40,682 bases of DNA from Verrucomicrobiota bacterium. GTDB lineage: Bacteria; Verrucomicrobiota; Verrucomicrobiia; Chthoniobacterales; UBA6821. Within the stretch, counting starts at the first letter, position 1; each line of letters opens with the position of its first letter. The notes beneath the pieces were generated by a model. The model was given only the letters and a program-made list of their open reading frames with translations. It did not search any database and had not been told where the DNA came from. The stretch covers positions 1 through 40,682 of the forward strand of contig WBXH01000004.1 in NCBI GenBank assembly GCA_008933015.1. The letters run 5' to 3'. A program made the position numbers and the translations under genes. This document shows positions 7,664 through 32,564 of the stretch, piece by piece.

Positions 7664-7891
7664 TCACTCTTCATCGGCTTCTATACAGAGAGAGTGATCT
7701 TTGGCCCACGTGGCGATGCTGGCGGACCATGCAGGCTCATCGCTGAACTCGGCGAGGCGATCTTTAGCGCCCGACCAGAGTTCGACAGGTAACGAGATGG
7801 GTTCGGGCGGTCCAGAATGGAGGGGAAAAAATGCCTGACGCCCAAAAACCGAACCAGTGAGCCAATCCGCTGGTGGTGTGCTTTTTTTCAT
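7664..7891 (-). CDS. Small hypothetical protein
   Basis: 75 residues, tryptophan-rich for its size (WLTGSVFGRQAFFPLH, VELWSGAKDRLAEF, PAWSASIATWAKDH), ending acidic (IEADEE). No signal peptide or membrane span. Family not recognised. The composition looks protein-like rather than like a frame shadow, and nothing else occupies this stretch. The stop region lies in a short inverted repeat (AGAGTGA/TCACTCT). No Shine-Dalgarno motif; the ATG is preceded by ccctcc. Confidence 0.45.
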   Translation of the reverse strand: MKKSTPPADWLTGSVFGRQAFFPLHSGPPEPISLPVELWSGAKDRLAEFSDEPAWSASIATWAKDHSLCIEADEE

Positions 7892-8142
7892 GGAGGGTGG
7901 TGTTTCATGGAGGTTCGCTGGGATCCATTGGGATCACTTGATCGCCCCCTTCTTATACCTTTGACACACAGCCCAAGCGATTCGTTGAAGGAGATTTTTG
8001 AGAAGATCCTTCGCAACCGAAGCGATTTTTCGACTAGGACTCTAAAACATCACTGCGCCATTCAAGTCGATAGGCTATGCCGTTCTTGTCTCCGCCAAGA
8101 GGAGGGAGATTTCATCCATACCATCTCCATTAATGAAGTAAA
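7892..8142. other. Intergenic stretch without a supported gene
   Basis: About 250 nt between the 75-residue ORF and tRNA-Thr. The long plus-strand ORF crossing it runs antisense through tRNA-Thr and is not credible. A TATAAG at about 7955-7960 read on the minus strand could be a -10 for the 75-residue ORF, but no good -35 accompanies it. Confidence 0.5.
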
Positions 8143-8218
<76 letters not shown>

Positions 8219-19513: not shown

Positions 19514-22500
19514 GTGTCTCCCGAGCAGGAAAAAACAGTTTTTGCAGATCCTCGAGGGGTTCGCCGGCGTGTGCTTCAGTTGATAATCCTATTCGGAGCC
19601 CTTCTGCTTCTCGGGGCGACTGGATACTTTTTCTGGGGTCTTCTGATCGGCCCTGAACTCAGGCTTCCGCTGACGCTTCGCAAATTCCACGATCAGTTCA
19701 AGGCCCTGCCCGCCGCAAAGATGCCGTTGATGGATGCCAAGGACAATTGGCGCCGGATCCGATCATCGGTACGCTCGACGTCCAATATTCCCGAATCAGC
19801 TGTCCAGAGATCTACGGAGACTGGAGTGATGCTCGGTTATGTCTCTCCATGGGATCCGGTGTCGATCCTGTCCATGGATCGTCATGCCGATCAACTCACC
19901 CATGTCGCCGCCGATTGGTTCAGTCTTAAGGGTGTGGAAGGAACCTTGGTGGAGGATGCCGCTGACAATGCCCGACTCCTTGCCGTGCGCAGAGGGCTCG
20001 GCTTCCTTCCCATACTCCGGAATCTTGACGGAGATGAATGGCAACCTGAAGCGGTGGAGGCCTTGGCAAGATCCTCCCCCGCCGATCGCGCCACATTCAT
20101 TGACAAGCTCGTCGGCCGCATGCCCCCGGGATCCACTGGCTTGCTGTTGGAGTGGAGCAATCTGGATCCCACCTATAAGGATGAAACCTCCCAGTTGATC
20201 AAGGAGCTTGCCGACCGCCTTCATGCATCCGGAAAGCAGCTCTGGTTTACTGTTCCGACGGGGAATGATTTCGATGCATTCAATCTCGAGTCGATCGCCA
20301 AATCCGCTGACAGAATGGTTGCCGGACTCTATGACGAGAACTCCGATTCCGACGACCCGGGACCTCTTGCAGATAGCGATTGGTTTCAAGGATGGCTTAA
20401 GACCATGATGGTGTATGGTCGCCCCGAGCAATGGGTCGTTGGGATGGGTTCCTATGGTTACAAGTGGAGAAAGGACAACCATTCCGTGGAATCGATCAGC
20501 TTCACGGACGCCATGGCCAGGGCCTCTCAGGCCGGCGTCGATCCAACGCAGGTTGATTCAAGCGAGTGGTCGCCCCATTTCGATTATTTGGCCGGCCCTA
20601 CTCAAAATCAGGAGAATGAAGTCTGGTTTCTTGATGCGGTGTGCCTTGCCAACCAAAAACGAGCCGCTGCCCCCTATCATCCGGGGGGCTATGCCCTATA
20701 TCGTCTTGGAGCCGAGGACCCCGCGGTCTGGAATGTCCTCCATGCGGATCCCCTGCAAACCCCTTCAGAGAAAGAGCTGCAGGATCTCGAGCACATCTCC
20801 CTTGGTGAGCTGATTGCTTCCACGGGAAGCGGAGACTTCATCACTGTGGGCGATGACTCTTATCCAGGGGAGCGTCAGGTAGAAATACGTTCCGACAATG
20901 GGGAAATCTTCGAGCGCTACACGAAGTTTCCGATGCCGGAGAGCATTGTTCGTCAGGGTGATCCGGGTCCCCACAAAGTGGCTCTGACCTTTGATGACGG
21001 CCCTGATCCAACTTGGACACCGAAGATCCTGAGTATTCTGAACGATAAAAAAGTCCCTGCTGCATTTTTTGTTCTGGGAACACAGGTCCAGCACTATCCC
21101 GATTTGCTCGAGCGCATCGCCCGGGAGGGTTACGAAGTCGGTAACCATACCTACACACATCAGAACATCGCGGAGGAGGGTGATGAGCAGATCGCCCTTC
21201 AACTCAATGCAACGACCCGTCTGATCGAGGCGGTGACGGGGCACTCGACCGCCTACTTCAGGCCCCCTTTTGGTATCGATGGAACGCCGGTCCAAGCTAG
21301 TGAAGTGCGTTCACTTCGGGTGGTGAGAGACTTGGGATATCTCACAGTTGCCGAATCGATCGACCCCGATGATTGGGAGCGCCCCGGAGCGGATGCCTTA
21401 GTTGAGAGGGTCAAGCGTCAGCGGCCAAGCGGAGGCTCCATCATTCTTCTGCATGATGGAGGAGGCGATCGTTCCCAGACTGTGGCGGCCCTGCCTCGTA
21501 TCATCGACTACCTCAGGAGCAGGGGAGACACATTCGTGAACCTTTCTGACATCATCGGACTGCCTCGAGACACGGTGATGCCCCCATTGCGGGAGCAGGA
21601 TCAGACCCTCTCGACCCGTTATGTCTACGGGGGATTTGTGGTCATTCGCCTCTTAGAGGCTGGAGCATGGTCACTGCTGATGATATTGACCCTACTCGCC
21701 CTAATCCGGGTGGTCTTCTACTCCCTTTGTGCCTTCCGACATCGCCGCCGCGAGAAAGAACAACCTATCCCCGAACCGCTGGTCTTGCCTTCGATTAGCA
21801 TCCTGCTTGCGGCGTATAATGAGGAGAGGGTGATTGCCTCCACGATTTCTCATCTCTTGGATGCCGATTATCCGGCCTCGCTGGAAGTGTTGGTGGTTGA
21901 CGATGGATCGAAGGACCTCACGACTGAGGTGGTTGCTGAGATAGCGGCTGCAGATGCGCGAGTGCGCTTTTTTACCCAGCCCAACAGCGGGAAAGCCTCG
22001 GCTCTCAGCAGGGCCCTCTCCGAAGCTCGTCATGGCATTATCGTGATGATCGATGCCGATACCATGGTGGCTCGCGATGGTCTCCGGAAACTCGTGGCAC
22101 CGTTGGCAGACCCTTTGGTGGGCGCCGTCTCCGGTTATATCCGGGTTGGTAACACAGGCCAGTGGCTCGGCAAATTTCAGGATCTTGAGTATGTCGGTGC
22201 CTTTGAAATAGACCGCCGTGCGCAGGATTTTCTCGGTTGTATAGTGGTGGCTCCAGGCGCTCTCAGCGCCTTCCGCAGGGAGACATTGGATGCGGCCGGC
22301 CCGATCACCAACGACACATTGGCTGAGGATACTGATCTAACCCTTCTGATTCACAAACTTGGCTGGAGGGTGGTCTTTGCTTCGGATGCATTTGCAGACA
22401 CGGAAGCTCCAGAGAGCATCAAGGCCCTTCTGTCACAGCGTTTTCGTTGGGCCTTCGGCACGCTTCAGTGTCTTTGGAAGCACGGCGACCTTCTCTTTGC

Positions 22501-22912
22501 CTCCGGATCGGGTTGGTTGGGCTGGTTCGCCCTCCCATCGATTTGGGTTTTCCAGATGGCGGTGGTAGCGATTACTCCCGTGCTCGACATCATTGTCTTC
22601 TGGTCGCTCTGGTTGGGCAGGGGTGTTGCCATATGGCCTTATTTCGTGGCCTCCTTGCTTCTCGATGTCTGCCTGGCTTTGGCTGCACTGATACTGGCAA
22701 GGCGTAGCCTTCGCTCGGCCTTGCTTGCTGTGCCGATGAGGTTGCTTTATCGTCCGATGCTCGGCTATGTGGTCTGGAAGTGCATCTTAAAGGCGCTTGC
22801 TGGGAGTTGGGTGAGGTGGTCGAAGCTTGAACGCACCGCTTCCGCGATCGTCCAGAGAGAGCAGCAGTCAAAAAAGAATGACGGAGAGCCGAAACTTGCC
22901 CTGCCTAAATGA
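19514..22912 (+). CDS. GH18-like / NodB deacetylase / GT2 trifunctional polysaccharide synthase
   Basis: 1132 residues. In order: cytoplasmic head; membrane span (~22-45); GH18-like TIM-barrel domain (~85-430); NodB polysaccharide deacetylase (~480-690) with TFDDGPDP, HTYTH, YFRPPFG and LLHDGGG; membrane span (~708-740); GT2 synthase (~755-1000) with LLAAYNEE, VVDDGS, IDADT, the EDTDLT base and QRFRW; then several C-terminal spans. It would make a beta-linked hexosamine polymer and deacetylate it outside, like PgaC plus PgaB in one chain. The usual GH18 D-x-E active-site strand reads GLLLEWSN, so hydrolytic activity is doubtful. Start is GTG without Shine-Dalgarno motif; ends in an ATGA overlap with the GH26 gene. 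Confidence 0.88.
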   Translation: MSPEQEKTVFADPRGVRRRVLQLIILFGALLLLGATGYFFWGLLIGPELRLPLTLRKFHDQFKALPAAKMPLMDAKDNWRRIRSSVRSTSNIPESAVQRSTETGVMLGYVSPWDPVSILSMDRHADQLTHVAADWFSLKGVEGTLVEDAADNARLLAVRRGLGFLPILRNLDGDEWQPEAVEALARSSPADRATFIDKLVGRMPPGSTGLLLEWSNLDPTYKDETSQLIKELADRLHASGKQLWFTVPTGNDFDAFNLESIAKSADRMVAGLYDENSDSDDPGPLADSDWFQGWLKTMMVYGRPEQWVVGMGSYGYKWRKDNHSVESISFTDAMARASQAGVDPTQVDSSEWSPHFDYLAGPTQNQENEVWFLDAVCLANQKRAAAPYHPGGYALYRLGAEDPAVWNVLHADPLQTPSEKELQDLEHISLGELIASTGSGDFITVGDDSYPGERQVEIRSDNGEIFERYTKFPMPESIVRQGDPGPHKVALTFDDGPDPTWTPKILSILNDKKVPAAFFVLGTQVQHYPDLLERIAREGYEVGNHTYTHQNIAEEGDEQIALQLNATTRLIEAVTGHSTAYFRPPFGIDGTPVQASEVRSLRVVRDLGYLTVAESIDPDDWERPGADALVERVKRQRPSGGSIILLHDGGGDRSQTVAALPRIIDYLRSRGDTFVNLSDIIGLPRDTVMPPLREQDQTLSTRYVYGGFVVIRLLEAGAWSLLMILTLLALIRVVFYSLCAFRHRRREKEQPIPEPLVLPSISILLAAYNEERVIASTISHLLDADYPASLEVLVVDDGSKDLTTEVVAEIAAADARVRFFTQPNSGKASALSRALSEARHGIIVMIDADTMVARDGLRKLVAPLADPLVGAVSGYIRVGNTGQWLGKFQDLEYVGAFEIDRRAQDFLGCIVVAPGALSAFRRETLDAAGPITNDTLAEDTDLTLLIHKLGWRVVFASDAFADTEAPESIKALLSQRFRWAFGTLQCLWKHGDLLFASGSGWLGWFALPSIWVFQMAVVAITPVLDIIVFWSLWLGRGVAIWPYFVASLLLDVCLALAALILARRSLRSALLAVPMRLLYRPMLGYVVWKCILKALAGSWVRWSKLERTASAIVQREQQSKKNDGEPKLALPK

Positions 22913-25511: not shown

Positions 25512-26357
25512 ATGATTTGGAAATTCCGCAAGCATGTGATCGATCTCACCGCGCGGGGCATAATTATGGGTATCGTCAATGCGACCCCGGATTCATTTTC
25601 GGATGGGGGGTGCTTCCATGATCCCGATGAGGCGTGCAAACACGGACTGAAGCTTCTTAACGAGGGGGCTGATATTCTTGATATCGGGGGTGAGTCTACG
25701 AAGCCGGGCTCCATGCCCGTATCCGTTGAAAAAGAGCTCGGGAGAGTTATTCCGGTCATCCGGGCACTCCGGGCCCGGACGGACATACCCATTTCCGTTG
25801 ATACCTCTAAATCCGCAGTAGCCGAAGCCGCCTTGGAGGCCGGTGCTGATATCATCAATGATGTGACAGCATTACGAGGGGATCCTCGCATGGGTAATCT
25901 TGCGGCGAGATCCGGGGCAGGATTGATCCTGATGCACATGCAGGGTATTCCGGAGACGATGCAAAAAGCTCCATCTTACTACAATGATGACGTTGTCGGT
26001 GAGGTGGCAAAAAATCTTTCAGAACGGAGGGCTGCGGCCATAGGCTTCGGCGTGGATACGACCGCGATCATACTCGACCCGGGAATCGGCTTCGGAAAAA
26101 CTATCGCTCATAATCTGAGTCTTATCTGGGGTGTGCCGCGGCTCTCTTCGCTTGGAGCGCCCCTGCTGATAGGTCATTCCAGAAAATCTTTCCTCGGTGG
26201 CCATGCGGTCTGCGGGAGTCATGAGGATGCGCGTCTGCCGGCAGCGCTCGCTGTTACGGCTCTTGCCCGCCAACTTGGAGCGCGGCTGTTCCGCGTACAC
26301 GAGCCACGTCCGCATAAGGAAGCCCTTCGTATGACAGAGTCCATCCTGAACGCATGA
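25512..26357 (+). CDS. folP: Dihydropteroate synthase
   Basis: Joins 6-hydroxymethyl-dihydropterin pyrophosphate with p-aminobenzoate in folate synthesis; the target of sulfonamides. 281 residues. MGIVNATPDSFSDGG, GADILDIGGESTKPGS, VDTSKSAVAEAALEAGADIINDV, LDPGIGFGKT and LIGHSRKSFLG are all canonical. It begins 39 nt after hisD and overlaps cdaA by 4 nt (ATGA). No Shine-Dalgarno motif. Confidence 0.96.
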   Translation: MIWKFRKHVIDLTARGIIMGIVNATPDSFSDGGCFHDPDEACKHGLKLLNEGADILDIGGESTKPGSMPVSVEKELGRVIPVIRALRARTDIPISVDTSKSAVAEAALEAGADIINDVTALRGDPRMGNLAARSGAGLILMHMQGIPETMQKAPSYYNDDVVGEVAKNLSERRAAAIGFGVDTTAIILDPGIGFGKTIAHNLSLIWGVPRLSSLGAPLLIGHSRKSFLGGHAVCGSHEDARLPAALAVTALARQLGARLFRVHEPRPHKEALRMTESILNA

Positions 26358-27238
26358 AGGCCCTCTTCTCCGGAATGTTCGGGATGTTTCACGAGTATTG
26401 GACCTCGGGAATGGAGATCCTGATCATAGCCTCGATACTTTATTACATCTATCTCTACTTAAGGGGGACGCATGGCGCTCGCATCCTGATCGGTGTCGCC
26501 CTAGTCTTCCTGACCCTAAGCTTTATTTCTCAAGTGCTCGATCTGGCGGTGCTCGGATGGTTGCTGAGGAGCTTCTCCGTCTTTCTGGCGATCGCTCTGG
26601 TTGTCATTTTCCAGCCCGAGTTGCGCCGCGCCCTGAACGAACTGGGAAGTCATCGCTTTTTCACTACCGCGCTGCAGCGCCGAGAGGCTGTTGAGGAGCT
26701 GACCGATGCTGTCTTCGACCTCTCCAGCAAGGGATTCGGTGCGCTGATCGCCCTGGAGCGTGATATCAGTTTGAAACCCTTCTCCGAAAGCGGCGTTGAG
26801 CTGGATGCTGAATTTTCAAAAGAACTCCTCCTCACGATCTTTCACCCAAAGACAGTGCTCCATGACGGTGGGGTGATCGTGCGAGGCGAGCGGATAGTGG
26901 CCGCCGGTTGTATCTTTCCACTCACCCAGCGTGATGATCTGGACAGGGCAATCGGGCTAAGGCACCGAGCCGGCCTTGGTCTTTCAGAGGAATCGGATAC
27001 CATTGTCCTCATCGTTTCGGAGGAGAGCGGCCAAGTTTCGATTTGTCACTCGGGGGTTATTGAGCGCAACCTTAATGTCGAACGGTTCAGTAAGCGTCTT
27101 TCACAGCTTCTGCTCCTCGAAGAGAACAATGCGACGAATTCTTTTACACAACTGGAAGGAGAAACTGGTCTGCCTGCTCCTGGGCGCGGCCGTCTGGTAT
27201 CTCATTCGTCAAAATCTGGGTCCTCCTCCGGAGCGTAG
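26354..27238 (+). CDS. cdaA: Membrane diadenylate cyclase CdaA
   Basis: Makes the second messenger c-di-AMP from two ATP. 294 residues: three N-terminal membrane spans (ILIIASILYYIYLYL, ILIGVALVFLTLSF, LLRSFSVFLAIALVVIF), the family linker VIFQPELRRALNELG, then a DAC domain with LHDGGVIV and GLRHRAGLGL (ATP-binding motifs). The last ~35 residues are low-complexity and overlap another reading frame that encodes a CdaR-like peptide. The folP-cdaA-...-glmM order agrees with the known link of CdaA to GlmM and cell-wall precursor supply. Confidence 0.94.
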   Translation: MKALFSGMFGMFHEYWTSGMEILIIASILYYIYLYLRGTHGARILIGVALVFLTLSFISQVLDLAVLGWLLRSFSVFLAIALVVIFQPELRRALNELGSHRFFTTALQRREAVEELTDAVFDLSSKGFGALIALERDISLKPFSESGVELDAEFSKELLLTIFHPKTVLHDGGVIVRGERIVAAGCIFPLTQRDDLDRAIGLRHRAGLGLSEESDTIVLIVSEESGQVSICHSGVIERNLNVERFSKRLSQLLLLEENNATNSFTQLEGETGLPAPGRGRLVSHSSKSGSSSGA

Positions 27239-27323
27239 AGCTCTGCACGCAGACAGTTCACAACCGGCCTTCGAGTCTTCTTCAAAGCACGGGGCAAAGA
27301 ACACGAAAAAAACCACGGATTAA
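27129..27323 (+). CDS. Mini CdaR/YbbR-like single-span membrane protein
   Basis: 64 residues, recovered as the C-terminal part of a longer track ORF. It starts MRRILLHNWKEKLVCLLLGA and continues AVWYLIRQNL, strongly resembling the N-terminal membrane helix of CdaR (YbbR) proteins, which begin with a basic -NW-KL- stretch and a single span. The YbbR domains that should follow are absent; only a polar 35-residue tail (Pro, Ser, Lys rich) remains. It overlaps the end of cdaA by 110 nt in another frame and ends 3 nt before glmM, exactly the place cdaR holds in cdaA-cdaR-glmM operons. GAAGAG lies 4 nt before the ATG. Confidence 0.6.
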   Translation: MRRILLHNWKEKLVCLLLGAAVWYLIRQNLGPPPERRALHADSSQPAFESSSKHGAKNTKKTTD

Positions 27324-27326
27324 TTC

Positions 27327-28685
27327 ATGGCCGAACGCATCCTTTTTGGAACGGATGGAATCAGGGGTATTGCCAACCGCTACCCCGTGACGCCGGAGGT
27401 AGCCTTGAGGCTGGGAAGAGCCGTGGGATTTCTATTCAGTAAGGAGGGGCGAGAACGACCTTGTTTTGTGGTCGGTCGCGACACGCGCCTCTCGGGTGGC
27501 ATGCTGGAGGACGCATTGGTTGCCGGCCTCAATTCAGCTGGAGCTGACGCTCTGCTTGCTGGCGTATTGCCCACCCCGGGAGTGGCAACACTAGTCCGCG
27601 AACTTCATGCGCAGGGAGGCGTTGTCATCTCAGCCTCACATAATCCCGCCGAGGATAACGGACTCAAACTTTTTGGCGCAGATGGCTACAAGTTTGATGA
27701 TGTGGTGGAAGAGCGACTGGAGGCCCTGATCCTAACCTCCGAGATCGACGGATTACGCCCTCGTGGGGACGAAGTCGGAATCAAGCGCATAATCGCCGAT
27801 GCCTCTCAGCGCTATGGCGCTTGCGTGATGGCGGGTGTTCCCGGCATGGCCCTGCATGGCATGAAGATCGCGGTCGATTGCGCAAACGGAGCCTCGTTCA
27901 GAACAACCCCAGAAGTGCTGCAAAAACTAGGCGCTTCAGTGTTGGCATTCCACGATTCACCTAATGGACTCAATATCAACGATTCATGCGGCAGCACCCA
28001 TCCCGGAGAGATCGCCAGACTTGTCCTTGAAACCGGAGCGCAGGCTGGGATTTCTCATGATGGTGATGCCGACCGGTTAGTTCTCGTTGATGAAAAGGGG
28101 GGAGTTCTCGATGGTGATGAGATTCTTGCAATGACTGCCCTTGATGGGTTGAAACGCGGAACTCTTGCGGGAAAGACTTTGGTAGCCACCGTAATGAGTA
28201 ATTTCGGTCTCGATGAGTGCCTAGCTTCTGCTGGAGGCTCTGTACTGCGAACTGCCGTCGGTGACCGCTATGTGGTTGAGGCGATGAGAAAGGGCAACTT
28301 CTCGATCGGAGGGGAACAGAGCGGTCACCTGATCTTTCGTGATCATGGGACGACCGGCGACGGGTTGCTTGCCGCTCTTCAGGTTCTTCGGATCATGACT
28401 GAGAGTGGGAAGCAGCTCAGCGAGCTTCGCCTCTGTCTTAAAAAATATCCTCAGGCCCAGAGAAATCTGACCGTAAAGTTCAAGCCCTCTCTTGAGACGT
28501 TACCCGAGGTTTCGGCTCTTATCGCGAAAACGGAAAAATCTCTGGCAGGCAAGGGACGTGTTCTCCTGCGGTATTCCGGCACGGAACCCAAAGTAAGGCT
28601 TCTGATCGAGGGGCCTAACCAGATGATGATCAACGCCGCTGCTGATGCTATTGCTGCCGCCTTGAACAAGTCCATCGGGGGTTAG
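27327..28685 (+). CDS. glmM: Phosphoglucosamine mutase
   Basis: Interconverts glucosamine 6-phosphate and 1-phosphate for UDP-GlcNAc, peptidoglycan and LPS. 452 residues, family length. FGTDGIRG, the active-site serine loop ISASHNPAEDNGLKLFG, the metal loop HDGDADRLVLVD, the sugar loop GGEQSGHLIF and the phosphate loop RYSGTEPKVR are all seen. It follows the mini-cdaR-like ORF by 3 nt. It is the last gene of the hisD run; no clear terminator follows before the convergent malonyl-CoA decarboxylase gene. Confidence 0.96.
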   Translation: MAERILFGTDGIRGIANRYPVTPEVALRLGRAVGFLFSKEGRERPCFVVGRDTRLSGGMLEDALVAGLNSAGADALLAGVLPTPGVATLVRELHAQGGVVISASHNPAEDNGLKLFGADGYKFDDVVEERLEALILTSEIDGLRPRGDEVGIKRIIADASQRYGACVMAGVPGMALHGMKIAVDCANGASFRTTPEVLQKLGASVLAFHDSPNGLNINDSCGSTHPGEIARLVLETGAQAGISHDGDADRLVLVDEKGGVLDGDEILAMTALDGLKRGTLAGKTLVATVMSNFGLDECLASAGGSVLRTAVGDRYVVEAMRKGNFSIGGEQSGHLIFRDHGTTGDGLLAALQVLRIMTESGKQLSELRLCLKKYPQAQRNLTVKFKPSLETLPEVSALIAKTEKSLAGKGRVLLRYSGTEPKVRLLIEGPNQMMINAAADAIAAALNKSIGG

Positions 28686-30193: not shown

Positions 30194-31357
30194 ATGACTA
30201 ACCCCTCCCGCTCCTCCGGGCCTCTTGCCGGCATTGTCGTTCTCGATCTATCCCGAATCTTAGCTGGGCCCTATTGCACGCTTCTAATGGCTGAGATGGG
30301 GGCTCGTGTGATCAAGGTCGAGCCACCCAAAGGGGGCGATGATGCGCGCGCCTATGGTCCCTTCGTGAATGGGAAATCCGCCTACTTTGCCTCGATCAAC
30401 CGAGGCAAAGAGAGCATCGCACTCGATCTCAAAAATGATGCTGATCGGAAAATCTTGGAGGGGTTGCTCGAAAAGGCGGATGTCATCGTTGAAAATTTCC
30501 GGCCCGGAACGATGGAGCGACTGGGTTACGGGTGGGAAACTCTGCATGTGAAATACCCGAGACTGATCTATGCCGCAGCTTCGGGCTTTGGTCATACCGG
30601 TCCTAATTCGAAAGACCCCGCCTACGACATGGTGATGCAGGGTCTCGGTGGAATGATGAGCATCACGGGTCACGAGGGGGGCGATCCGGCCCGGGTTGGC
30701 ATGTCTATCGGGGATATCGGTGCCGGACTCTACACGGCGATTGCCGTGAATGCGGCGCTAGTTCATCGATTGACCACTGGTGAAGCCACCAAGGTGGACA
30801 TCGCCATGTTCGACTGTCAACTGGCACTCCTTGAAAATGCCATCATGCGGTACAACGTGGAGGGTGAGGTTCCCGGACCGCTTGGAGCAAGGCATCCGAC
30901 AATCACTCCTTTCCAAGCTTTCCGTGCTGCGGATGGACCGATCATCATTGCTGCCGGAAACGATGGTCTGTTCGTGAAGATGTGCGAGGCTCTTGCCTGT
31001 CCCGACATGGCGGCCAACCCCGACTATGCCACCAATGCGTGGAGGCTCAAAAATCTTCAACTCCTCCAGAAGGAGATCGGGGAGGTGCTGAAAACCAAAA
31101 GTGTTGCCGAATGGGTGACGATTCTGGCGGCAGCAGGTGTGCCGAGCGGTCCCATCAATTCTGTAGCGCAGGCAATCAAACACCCGCAGGTGAGTCCACG
31201 GAATATGCTCGTTGAGGTTCCTGATGGCAGTGGTGGGACGCTCAAACTGGTCGGTAATCCCCTTAAGATATCGGGATTTGAGGATCCGTCCACTCGCGCT
31301 CAGGCTCCTGATCTGGATGGGAATCGGAATGATATTCTCTCTTGGATCGGCGGCTAG
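30194..31357 (+). CDS. CaiB/BaiF family (class III) CoA-transferase, probably malonate-specific
   Basis: 387 residues. Class III features: VVLDLSRILAGPYCTLLMAEMGA, VIKVEPPKGGDDARAYGP, DLKNDADRKILEGLLEKADV with NFRPGTMERLGYG, and the catalytic Asp in VGMSIGDIGAGLY. Family members move CoA between carboxylic acids. The neighbours (malonyl-CoA decarboxylase, madL, madM) point to malonate as acceptor, with acetyl-CoA or succinyl-CoA as donor; this is inference. It would replace malonyl-CoA synthetase (MatB) or the Mdc/Mad acyl-carrier systems. The start follows cacccccATG with no Shine-Dalgarno motif. Confidence 0.87.
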   Translation: MTNPSRSSGPLAGIVVLDLSRILAGPYCTLLMAEMGARVIKVEPPKGGDDARAYGPFVNGKSAYFASINRGKESIALDLKNDADRKILEGLLEKADVIVENFRPGTMERLGYGWETLHVKYPRLIYAAASGFGHTGPNSKDPAYDMVMQGLGGMMSITGHEGGDPARVGMSIGDIGAGLYTAIAVNAALVHRLTTGEATKVDIAMFDCQLALLENAIMRYNVEGEVPGPLGARHPTITPFQAFRAADGPIIIAAGNDGLFVKMCEALACPDMAANPDYATNAWRLKNLQLLQKEIGEVLKTKSVAEWVTILAAAGVPSGPINSVAQAIKHPQVSPRNMLVEVPDGSGGTLKLVGNPLKISGFEDPSTRAQAPDLDGNRNDILSWIGG

Positions 31358-31395
31358 CGGTTAGTTTTCAGGATAAAAAAGCAACCCTTACCCCC

Positions 31396-31803
31396 ATGAT
31401 GATTTACGGCACGGCCCTTCTCGCCATCTGTACCCTGATCGGTATCTCCATCGGAGAAGAGCTTGGGTCATTCCTAGGCGTGAAGGCTAATGTCGGAGGA
31501 GTTGGCTTTGCCATGCTCCTGCTTATCCTAACGACGTCCTGGCTTATAAAAAGGGGCCGATTCAGACCACTCTCCGCCGAGGGCATCCAGTTTTGGAGCG
31601 GTATCTATATTCCAATTGTTGTTGCGATGTCTGCCAAGCAGAACGTCGTCGTTGCGATGAAGGGTGGTCCCGCCGCAATCGTTGCCGGTGTTTTGGGGGT
31701 GGGGATCAGCTTTGCCATGATTCCCTACGTCAACCGGATCGGAGCCCCCAAGGATGCGCTGCCTGCCAAGCTGGAGGAAGTCCCGACGGAGAATATGCGA
31801 TGA
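31396..31803 (+). CDS. madL: Malonate transporter subunit MadL
   Basis: 135 residues from ATG 31396: MMIYGTALLAICTLIGISIGE, GVKANVGGVGFAMLLLIL, then a span around FWSGIYIPIVVAMSAKQNVV and GGPAAIVAGVLGVGISFAMIP. Four hydrophobic segments. With MadM it forms a two-component malonate carrier, sodium-dependent in Malonomonas rubra. The ATGA overlap with madM is typical of obligate partners. It lies 38 nt after the CoA-transferase gene. Confidence 0.92.
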   Translation: MMIYGTALLAICTLIGISIGEELGSFLGVKANVGGVGFAMLLLILTTSWLIKRGRFRPLSAEGIQFWSGIYIPIVVAMSAKQNVVVAMKGGPAAIVAGVLGVGISFAMIPYVNRIGAPKDALPAKLEEVPTENMR

Positions 31804-32564
31804 TTGAGTTGCTGCGACATACGATGGAAGCGAATGGCCTGCTTACGGCGTTCGTTGTTGTTGGCGTGATGATGTGGGTCTCCAACTGGATTTCCAAGAC
31901 TTTGACCGGCGGGCGATTGCATGGCTCGGCGATCGCCGTTTTCGGCGGTCTTATCCTGGCCTACGTTGGAGGGGTCACCACCGGCGGAAAAAACGGGATC
32001 ACGGACATTCCTTTTTTTGCTGGAATAGGCTTGATGGGTGGAGCGATGTTTCGGGATTTCGCTATCGTCGCTACAGCGTTTGGGGCCTCCTTTGAGGATC
32101 TCAAGCGATCCGGGGTTTCCGTGATGATCGCGCTTGCACTCGGCATCACCGTCTCATTTGTTAGCGGTGCTGGTGCGGCTTATGCCTTCGGTTACCATGA
32201 TGCGGTTACTCTTTGTACGATCGGTGCAGGTGCCGCCACCTATATTGTCGGTCCGGTAACGGGCACTGCACTGGGCGCTAGCTCTGAAGCAATAGCCTTG
32301 AGCATCGCTGCCGGGCTGGTGAAGGCAATCGTCGTGATGATTGCCACGCCCCACCTGGCTAAAAAACTTCAACTCAATAACCCTCATACCGCCATGGTCT
32401 ATGGTGGCATGATGGGAACCCATAGCGGGATTGCGGCCGGCCTGCAGGCGACCGATCCCAAGCTTATGCCCTACGGGCTGATGGCTGCAGCTTTCTACAC
32501 CGGGTTAGGCTGTCTGGTCTGCCCATCAATCTTTTATTTTATACTTCTACGGCTATTACCTTAG
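31800..32564 (+). CDS. madM: Malonate transporter subunit MadM
   Basis: 254 residues from ATG 31800, polytopic (about seven spans). The N-terminal TAFVVVGVMMWVSNWISKTLT, the glycine-rich FAGIGLMGGAMFRDFAI and IGAGAATYIVGPVTGTALGASSE, and the late MVYGGMMGTHSGIAAGLQATD are characteristic. The long track ORF starts inside madL in another frame and is not used. It completes the malonate uptake pair. Confidence 0.92.
   Translation: MIELLRHTMEANGLLTAFVVVGVMMWVSNWISKTLTGGRLHGSAIAVFGGLILAYVGGVTTGGKNGITDIPFFAGIGLMGGAMFRDFAIVATAFGASFEDLKRSGVSVMIALALGITVSFVSGAGAAYAFGYHDAVTLCTIGAGAATYIVGPVTGTALGASSEAIALSIAAGLVKAIVVMIATPHLAKKLQLNNPHTAMVYGGMMGTHSGIAAGLQATDPKLMPYGLMAAAFYTGLGCLVCPSIFYFILLRLLP

Follow-up and report, generated by a model that had tools for sequence, protein, structure and literature searches.

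A conserved small gene overlapping cdaA in Verrucomicrobiota encodes a predicted CdaR membrane anchor without YbbR domains

We analysed a 40,682-nt stretch of DNA from a Verrucomicrobiota bacterium (the window), the plus strand of which carries the gene order folP-cdaA-(64-codon ORF)-glmM. The upstream gene of this cluster, folP (25512-26357, plus strand), encodes dihydropteroate synthase and overlaps the start of cdaA by 4 nt. The cdaA gene (26354-27238, plus strand) encodes a 294-aa membrane diadenylate cyclase with CdaA_N at residues 20-89 and the DAC domain at residues 118-235, and matches to TIGR00159 (1.5e-68), PF02457 (DAC) and PF19293 (CdaA_N) identified it as a true CdaA. The small ORF, here called mini-CdaR, runs from ATG 27129 to TAA 27323 on the plus strand and encodes 64 aa (MRRILLHNWKEKLVCLLLGAAVWYLIRQNLGPPPERRALHADSSQPAFESSSKHGAKNTKKTTD). 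Its first 110 nt (27129-27238) lie within cdaA, in the +1 frame relative to it, and its stop codon precedes by 3 nt the ATG at 27327 of glmM (27327-28685, plus strand), which encodes a 452-aa protein of the phosphoglucosamine-mutase type. A preliminary description of this DNA had placed the 64-residue ORF between cdaA and glmM with the same overlap, frame shift and distance to glmM, all of which are exact on the window.

An ORF sharing 110-152 nt with cdaA, as found in the window's genus, might be spurious, its apparent conservation coming from the conserved gene that it overlaps. We compared relatives found via a CdaA search, and the same small ORF, 46-75 residues long, was present at the cdaA end in 51 of 54 cdaA-bearing relatives; every congener in which the 3' end of cdaA could be read had the small frame intact. 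In the 100 nt of cdaA before the small ORF, the codon positions 1, 2 and 3 were variable in 12, 8 and 22 columns, respectively, across 14 congeneric loci. Within the first 96 nt of the overlap, the counts in these 14 loci were 22, 11 and 7 in the cdaA frame and 11, 7 and 22 in the mini-CdaR frame; third positions are thus the least variable for cdaA there and the most variable for mini-CdaR (mini-CdaR position 3 versus positions 1 and 2, Fisher p = 1.6e-4; a second Fisher test gave p = 4.5e-3). Codon differences in the overlap of the 14 loci likewise amounted to 717 synonymous versus 353 non-synonymous when read as mini-CdaR, and to 187 versus 822 when read as cdaA, so that the small frame is constrained and the cdaA frame is not. 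This frame-specific variation indicated that the small ORF is constrained from ATG 27129 onwards while the tail of CdaA drifts. A longer ORF is mechanically possible from TTG 26976, but since the constrained frame switches at 27129, the real start lies at this codon or very close to it.

The same protein is also encoded in other arrangements relative to cdaA. Six members of the order carry it as a non-overlapping ORF (L036, L038, L039, L051, L053 and L054), and some others have the small ORF in a different frame with the protein unchanged. In the absence of overlap, dN was far below dS (Nei-Gojobori; for example, 0.020 versus 0.505 for L036/L038), and in family f97 (L179, G490:C66, 986-1153, plus strand) the gene lies away from cdaA altogether, behind a pfkA-like phosphofructokinase gene. 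As a result, a spurious origin has next to no probability, and the 64-codon ORF is a genuine conserved gene under purifying selection, fixed across the order and much of the class. The overlap reaches about 150 nt in the order and exceeds 60 nt in 34 of 52 of its loci. Same-strand overlaps of more than 60 nt exceed what a common gene finder allows, and the anchor-only family may therefore be largely missing from annotations.

Searched against the Pfam and NCBIfam models, the mini-CdaR protein gave no match. Its profile was compared by hhalign with that of CdaR N-termini from other phyla, including Lentisphaerota, Kiritimatiellota, Omnitrophota, Bacillota and Bacteroidota. The two aligned with a probability of 97.2% and a score of 53, whereas column-shuffled controls reached a maximum score of 22, with 0 of 200 as good. 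In the CdaRs outside the class, K, A and W are near-invariant at spacings of +7 and +11, and these residues correspond to K12, G/A19 and W23 of mini-CdaR, encoded at 27162-27197 (plus strand). The signature K-x6-[AG]-x3-W was present in 100 of 101 anchor-only proteins and in all 37 proteins of domain size, a class set by length, of which Pfam matches YbbR in part only. Column conservation was also correlated between the anchor-only and domain-bearing forms (r = 0.83). A profile of the 33-residue core was searched in the class as well, and of the 25 genomes with YbbR, 21 gave a match immediately before the YbbR domain, in an ORF of fitting size. Behind cdaA, the proteins of the class grade from two YbbR domains through one to none, and among the approximately 150 loci read, the proteins fell into sizes of 221-229, 127-158 and 41-94 aa, with none between 94 and 127. 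Judged by the profile match, the invariant residues, the position and the length series, the small protein is homologous to the CdaR membrane anchor and represents this anchor on its own; by the Pfam definition it is no YbbR-domain protein. The likeness to a CdaR anchor without YbbR domains, proposed from the letters of the window alone, is borne out by these four lines of comparison.

No YbbR domain (PF07949) was detected in the window's assembly (completeness 85%) or among 147 genomes from its order, and no full-length cdaR was found elsewhere in either. YbbR occurred in 161 of 289 genomes of the phylum sample and in 25 of 188 genomes of the class, while the core profile matched 128 of these 188. 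The named relatives of the window belong to Chthoniobacterales, and among the named carriers of the anchor are Rubritalea marina DSM 17716 (40 aa), Verrucomicrobium sp. BvORR106, and MAGs of Akkermansiaceae and Methylacidiphilaceae. When a CdaA tree was rooted with other classes, the distribution of anchor-only and domain-bearing forms required three changes, namely in a large anchor-only clade (SH-aLRT 98), in the f70/f75 clade (96) and in G510. Three losses of YbbR is the preferred count but not a certain one, since support for the root branch is weak (62). Outside the phylum, two Omnitrophota MAGs (L275 and L298) have 42- and 44-aa anchors directly behind cdaA, followed by genes that we call pdxJ-like from reading their translations, and by acpS-like genes. 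PF07949 was absent from both of these genomes, as well as from those of Rubritalea and Verrucomicrobium, and the two Omnitrophota loci have apparently been reduced to the anchor independently.

A protein consisting of an anchor that has lost its domains could also be a decaying stub of cdaR, left behind as neutral debris. Such a remnant would fit the freely varying tail (27216-27320, plus strand), which is predicted to be unstructured, differs in length and sequence, and occupies the site of the YbbR domains in full-length CdaR. It would also fit the complete loss of the gene in three genomes of a sister genus (L027 of G018, L029 of G017 and L031 of G020) and in families f87 and f93, where CdaA is kept and a profile search detected no anchor. 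Essentially all 101 anchor-only proteins, however, retain the same helix with K12 and W23, copies free of the overlap show dN far below dS, the mini-CdaR frame is constrained within the overlap, and most of the class sample falls into a single anchor-only clade. No frame disruption beside a conserved cdaA tail was seen; the three sister-genus genomes had lost the long CdaA tail together with the small ORF and are natural knock-outs of it. We thus consider a decaying remnant highly improbable, and both this and the spurious-overlap reading were rejected by the codon positions, the dN/dS values and the non-overlapping orthologues. The preliminary description had left the choice between a minimal regulator and a remnant; the intact frame, purifying selection and fixation speak against the latter, and the former is supported. 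Since the lineages of G017, G018, G020, f87 and f93 keep CdaA with no detectable anchor, the anchor is not indispensable. A comparison of CdaA residue changes across the anchor-less lineages found no site common to most of them.

We also examined which neighbour the anchor follows. Among the 138 class genomes with a listed cdaA, 118 had an anchor match directly behind it, and class genomes with no TIGR00159 match had no anchor match at E <= 0.01. The CdaR (YbbR) proteins of Bacillus, Listeria, Staphylococcus and Chlamydia are likewise encoded directly downstream of cdaA, often before glmM. In our sample, 135 loci extended far enough downstream to be compared, and in 100 of them glmM came next after the anchor. 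GlmM has been described as an inhibitor of CdaA (PMC8573169, PMC6368335), so that a real small membrane protein at this place might have GlmM, or CdaA and GlmM together, as its main partner and bring GlmM or some other cytoplasmic protein to the membrane. In the other 35 of the 135 loci, including Akkermansia-type ones, glmM is not there, but the adjacency to cdaA is kept; the anchor tracks cdaA, not glmM. Moreover, in one Akkermansia-type genome (G239, locus L178; frame 2, roughly bases 60-1100), the anchor is joined in frame to the C-terminus of CdaA, the fusion ending in ...WRTRIKKYVTEQWQAKLICFVLAFTVWFVV...EIRRSHP, and the conserved face of the protein lies in the membrane helix rather than in its short N-terminal segment. 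We therefore regard GlmM, alone or together with CdaA, as an unlikely main partner.

In the window, the single helix of mini-CdaR comprises residues 9-29 (WKEKLVCLLLGAAVWYLIRQN; 27153-27215, plus strand), as judged from helical periodicity and from an AlphaFold2 model of the small protein, in which this segment had a pLDDT of 85-89 and the rest was disordered; the pTM was low, as an isolated helix should give. The conserved positions W9, K12, L16, G/A19, W23 and I26, all within this segment, form a stripe along one helix face (peak at 105 degrees, p = 0.0018). The charge was +2.9 on the N side versus 0.1 on the C side, and the bias fitted an N-in/C-out orientation in 86 of 100 proteins. The G239 fusion also sets the N-side of the anchor beside the cytoplasmic DAC domain. 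Covariation of CdaA with the anchor, analysed by mutual information, was not enriched in the membrane helices of CdaA, from approximately 92 effective sequences in a signal dominated by phylogeny; most of the top pairs fell in the DAC domain, and the result was judged to be phylogenetic noise.

In the published systems, CdaR and CdaA are reported to touch through their transmembrane segments (PMC10243994, PMC8573169, PMC8316131), and TM3 of DacA is the site of a mutation that suppresses a ybbR deletion (PMC5207132). The CdaA-CdaR fusions reported for some streptococci (PMC10243994) physically link CdaA to the CdaR helix, as does the bare-anchor fusion of G239 and that of a CdaA paralogue in G493 described below, whereas the window has separate, overlapping genes and a partner that is the helix alone. 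Full-length and mini-CdaR share an N-terminal single membrane helix with the K-x6-A-x3-W stripe and the same conserved columns. They differ in that mini-CdaR has no PF07949 and extends beyond the membrane only by a variable, short tail, measures 41-94 aa against about 220-480 for full CdaR, and overlaps cdaA in the window's order. The one- and two-YbbR CdaRs of the same class (127-229 aa; for example, L146, L156 and L170) have the same anchor and an orthologous position behind cdaA, and represent intermediate steps of the reduction that still bear one or two domains.

Taken with these systems, the sequence comparisons point to a scheme in which the outer YbbR domains were lost while the N-terminal membrane helix of CdaR was kept under selection. 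Mini-CdaR would be inserted N-in/C-out, in the same orientation as CdaR, and its conserved face (W9, K12, L16, G/A19, W23 and I26) would pack against the transmembrane helices of CdaA. We infer that this packing could set the assembly or activity of the cyclase in the absence of an outer sensor domain, and mini-CdaR is, in our assessment, probably such a minimal CdaR. A narrower alternative is that the small protein merely serves to stabilise CdaA or to insert it, the YbbR domains having been the regulatory part. The retention of the helix alone fits this alternative, as a constitutive structural subunit would look identical, and excess DacA without YbbR is harmful in Chlamydia (PMC12422730); we hold it to be possible but the less probable account. 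As for the minimal CdaR acting on CdaA, the mode of CdaA regulation by CdaR has been called unclear (PMC8573169), and its published effects are opposite in sign: YbbR is needed for the function and activity of DacA in Chlamydia (PMC12422730), and a ybbR insertion mutant of S. aureus has higher c-di-AMP (PMC11520302). Since Chlamydia, where YbbR activates DacA, belongs to a related PVC phylum, activation or stabilisation by mini-CdaR is slightly favoured over repression. Its role may nevertheless differ from that of full CdaR, because the only extracytoplasmic part described is gone. We found no c-di-AMP measurement for any anchor-only carrier in the literature searched.

The repeated natural deletion of YbbR with retention of the helix separates the two halves of CdaR. 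Since YbbR was lost several times and the helix was kept, the anchor alone is predicted to have a function, and this suggests that what is essential to the CdaA-CdaR partnership is contact between helices in the membrane. We lean, with some reserve, towards a broader reading in which CdaR works through its helix. In this view, YbbR domains were shed several times across a large part of Verrucomicrobiota and apparently independently in some Omnitrophota, a helix-only regulator of 41-94 residues was retained, often concealed by its overlap with cdaA, and c-di-AMP synthesis would be tuned by intramembrane packing alone. K12, G/A19 and W23 stand out as residues for mutation, while genus g2 and families f87 and f93 provide natural knock-outs for comparison. 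Small single-helix regulators of membrane enzymes, of around 50 residues and acting by helix contact, include MgrB and KdpF. Mini-CdaR is like these in size and in having one helix; the targets differ, and no kinship by sequence is claimed.

Several further features were observed beside the anchor loci. In Methylacidiphilum-like families (L117, L143, L150, L151, L159, L161, L173 and L188), the outer tail bears a second motif, EPG-x2-DQ-x-L, and by virtue of its conservation the tail may also be constrained in this clade. In an Akkermansia-type MAG (L257), the CdaR anchor belongs to a 113-aa protein whose tail is glutamine-rich and coiled-coil-like and stands in place of YbbR. On the minus strand of L223 (G493:C66), a divergent second CdaA paralogue is fused to a CdaR-like anchor and an outer segment in a 408-aa frame. 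A toxin-antitoxin-like pair also precedes the relocated anchor gene of L179. Elsewhere on the plus strand of the window, 19514-22912 encodes a 1132-aa protein in which GH18-like, polysaccharide deacetylase and family 2 glycosyltransferase domains are fused, and at 30194-32564 madL and madM (malonate/sodium symporter) lie behind a CoA-transferase III gene. A long ORF at 7817-8212 (plus strand) ends over a tRNA-Thr gene (8143-8218, minus strand) and is probably spurious.
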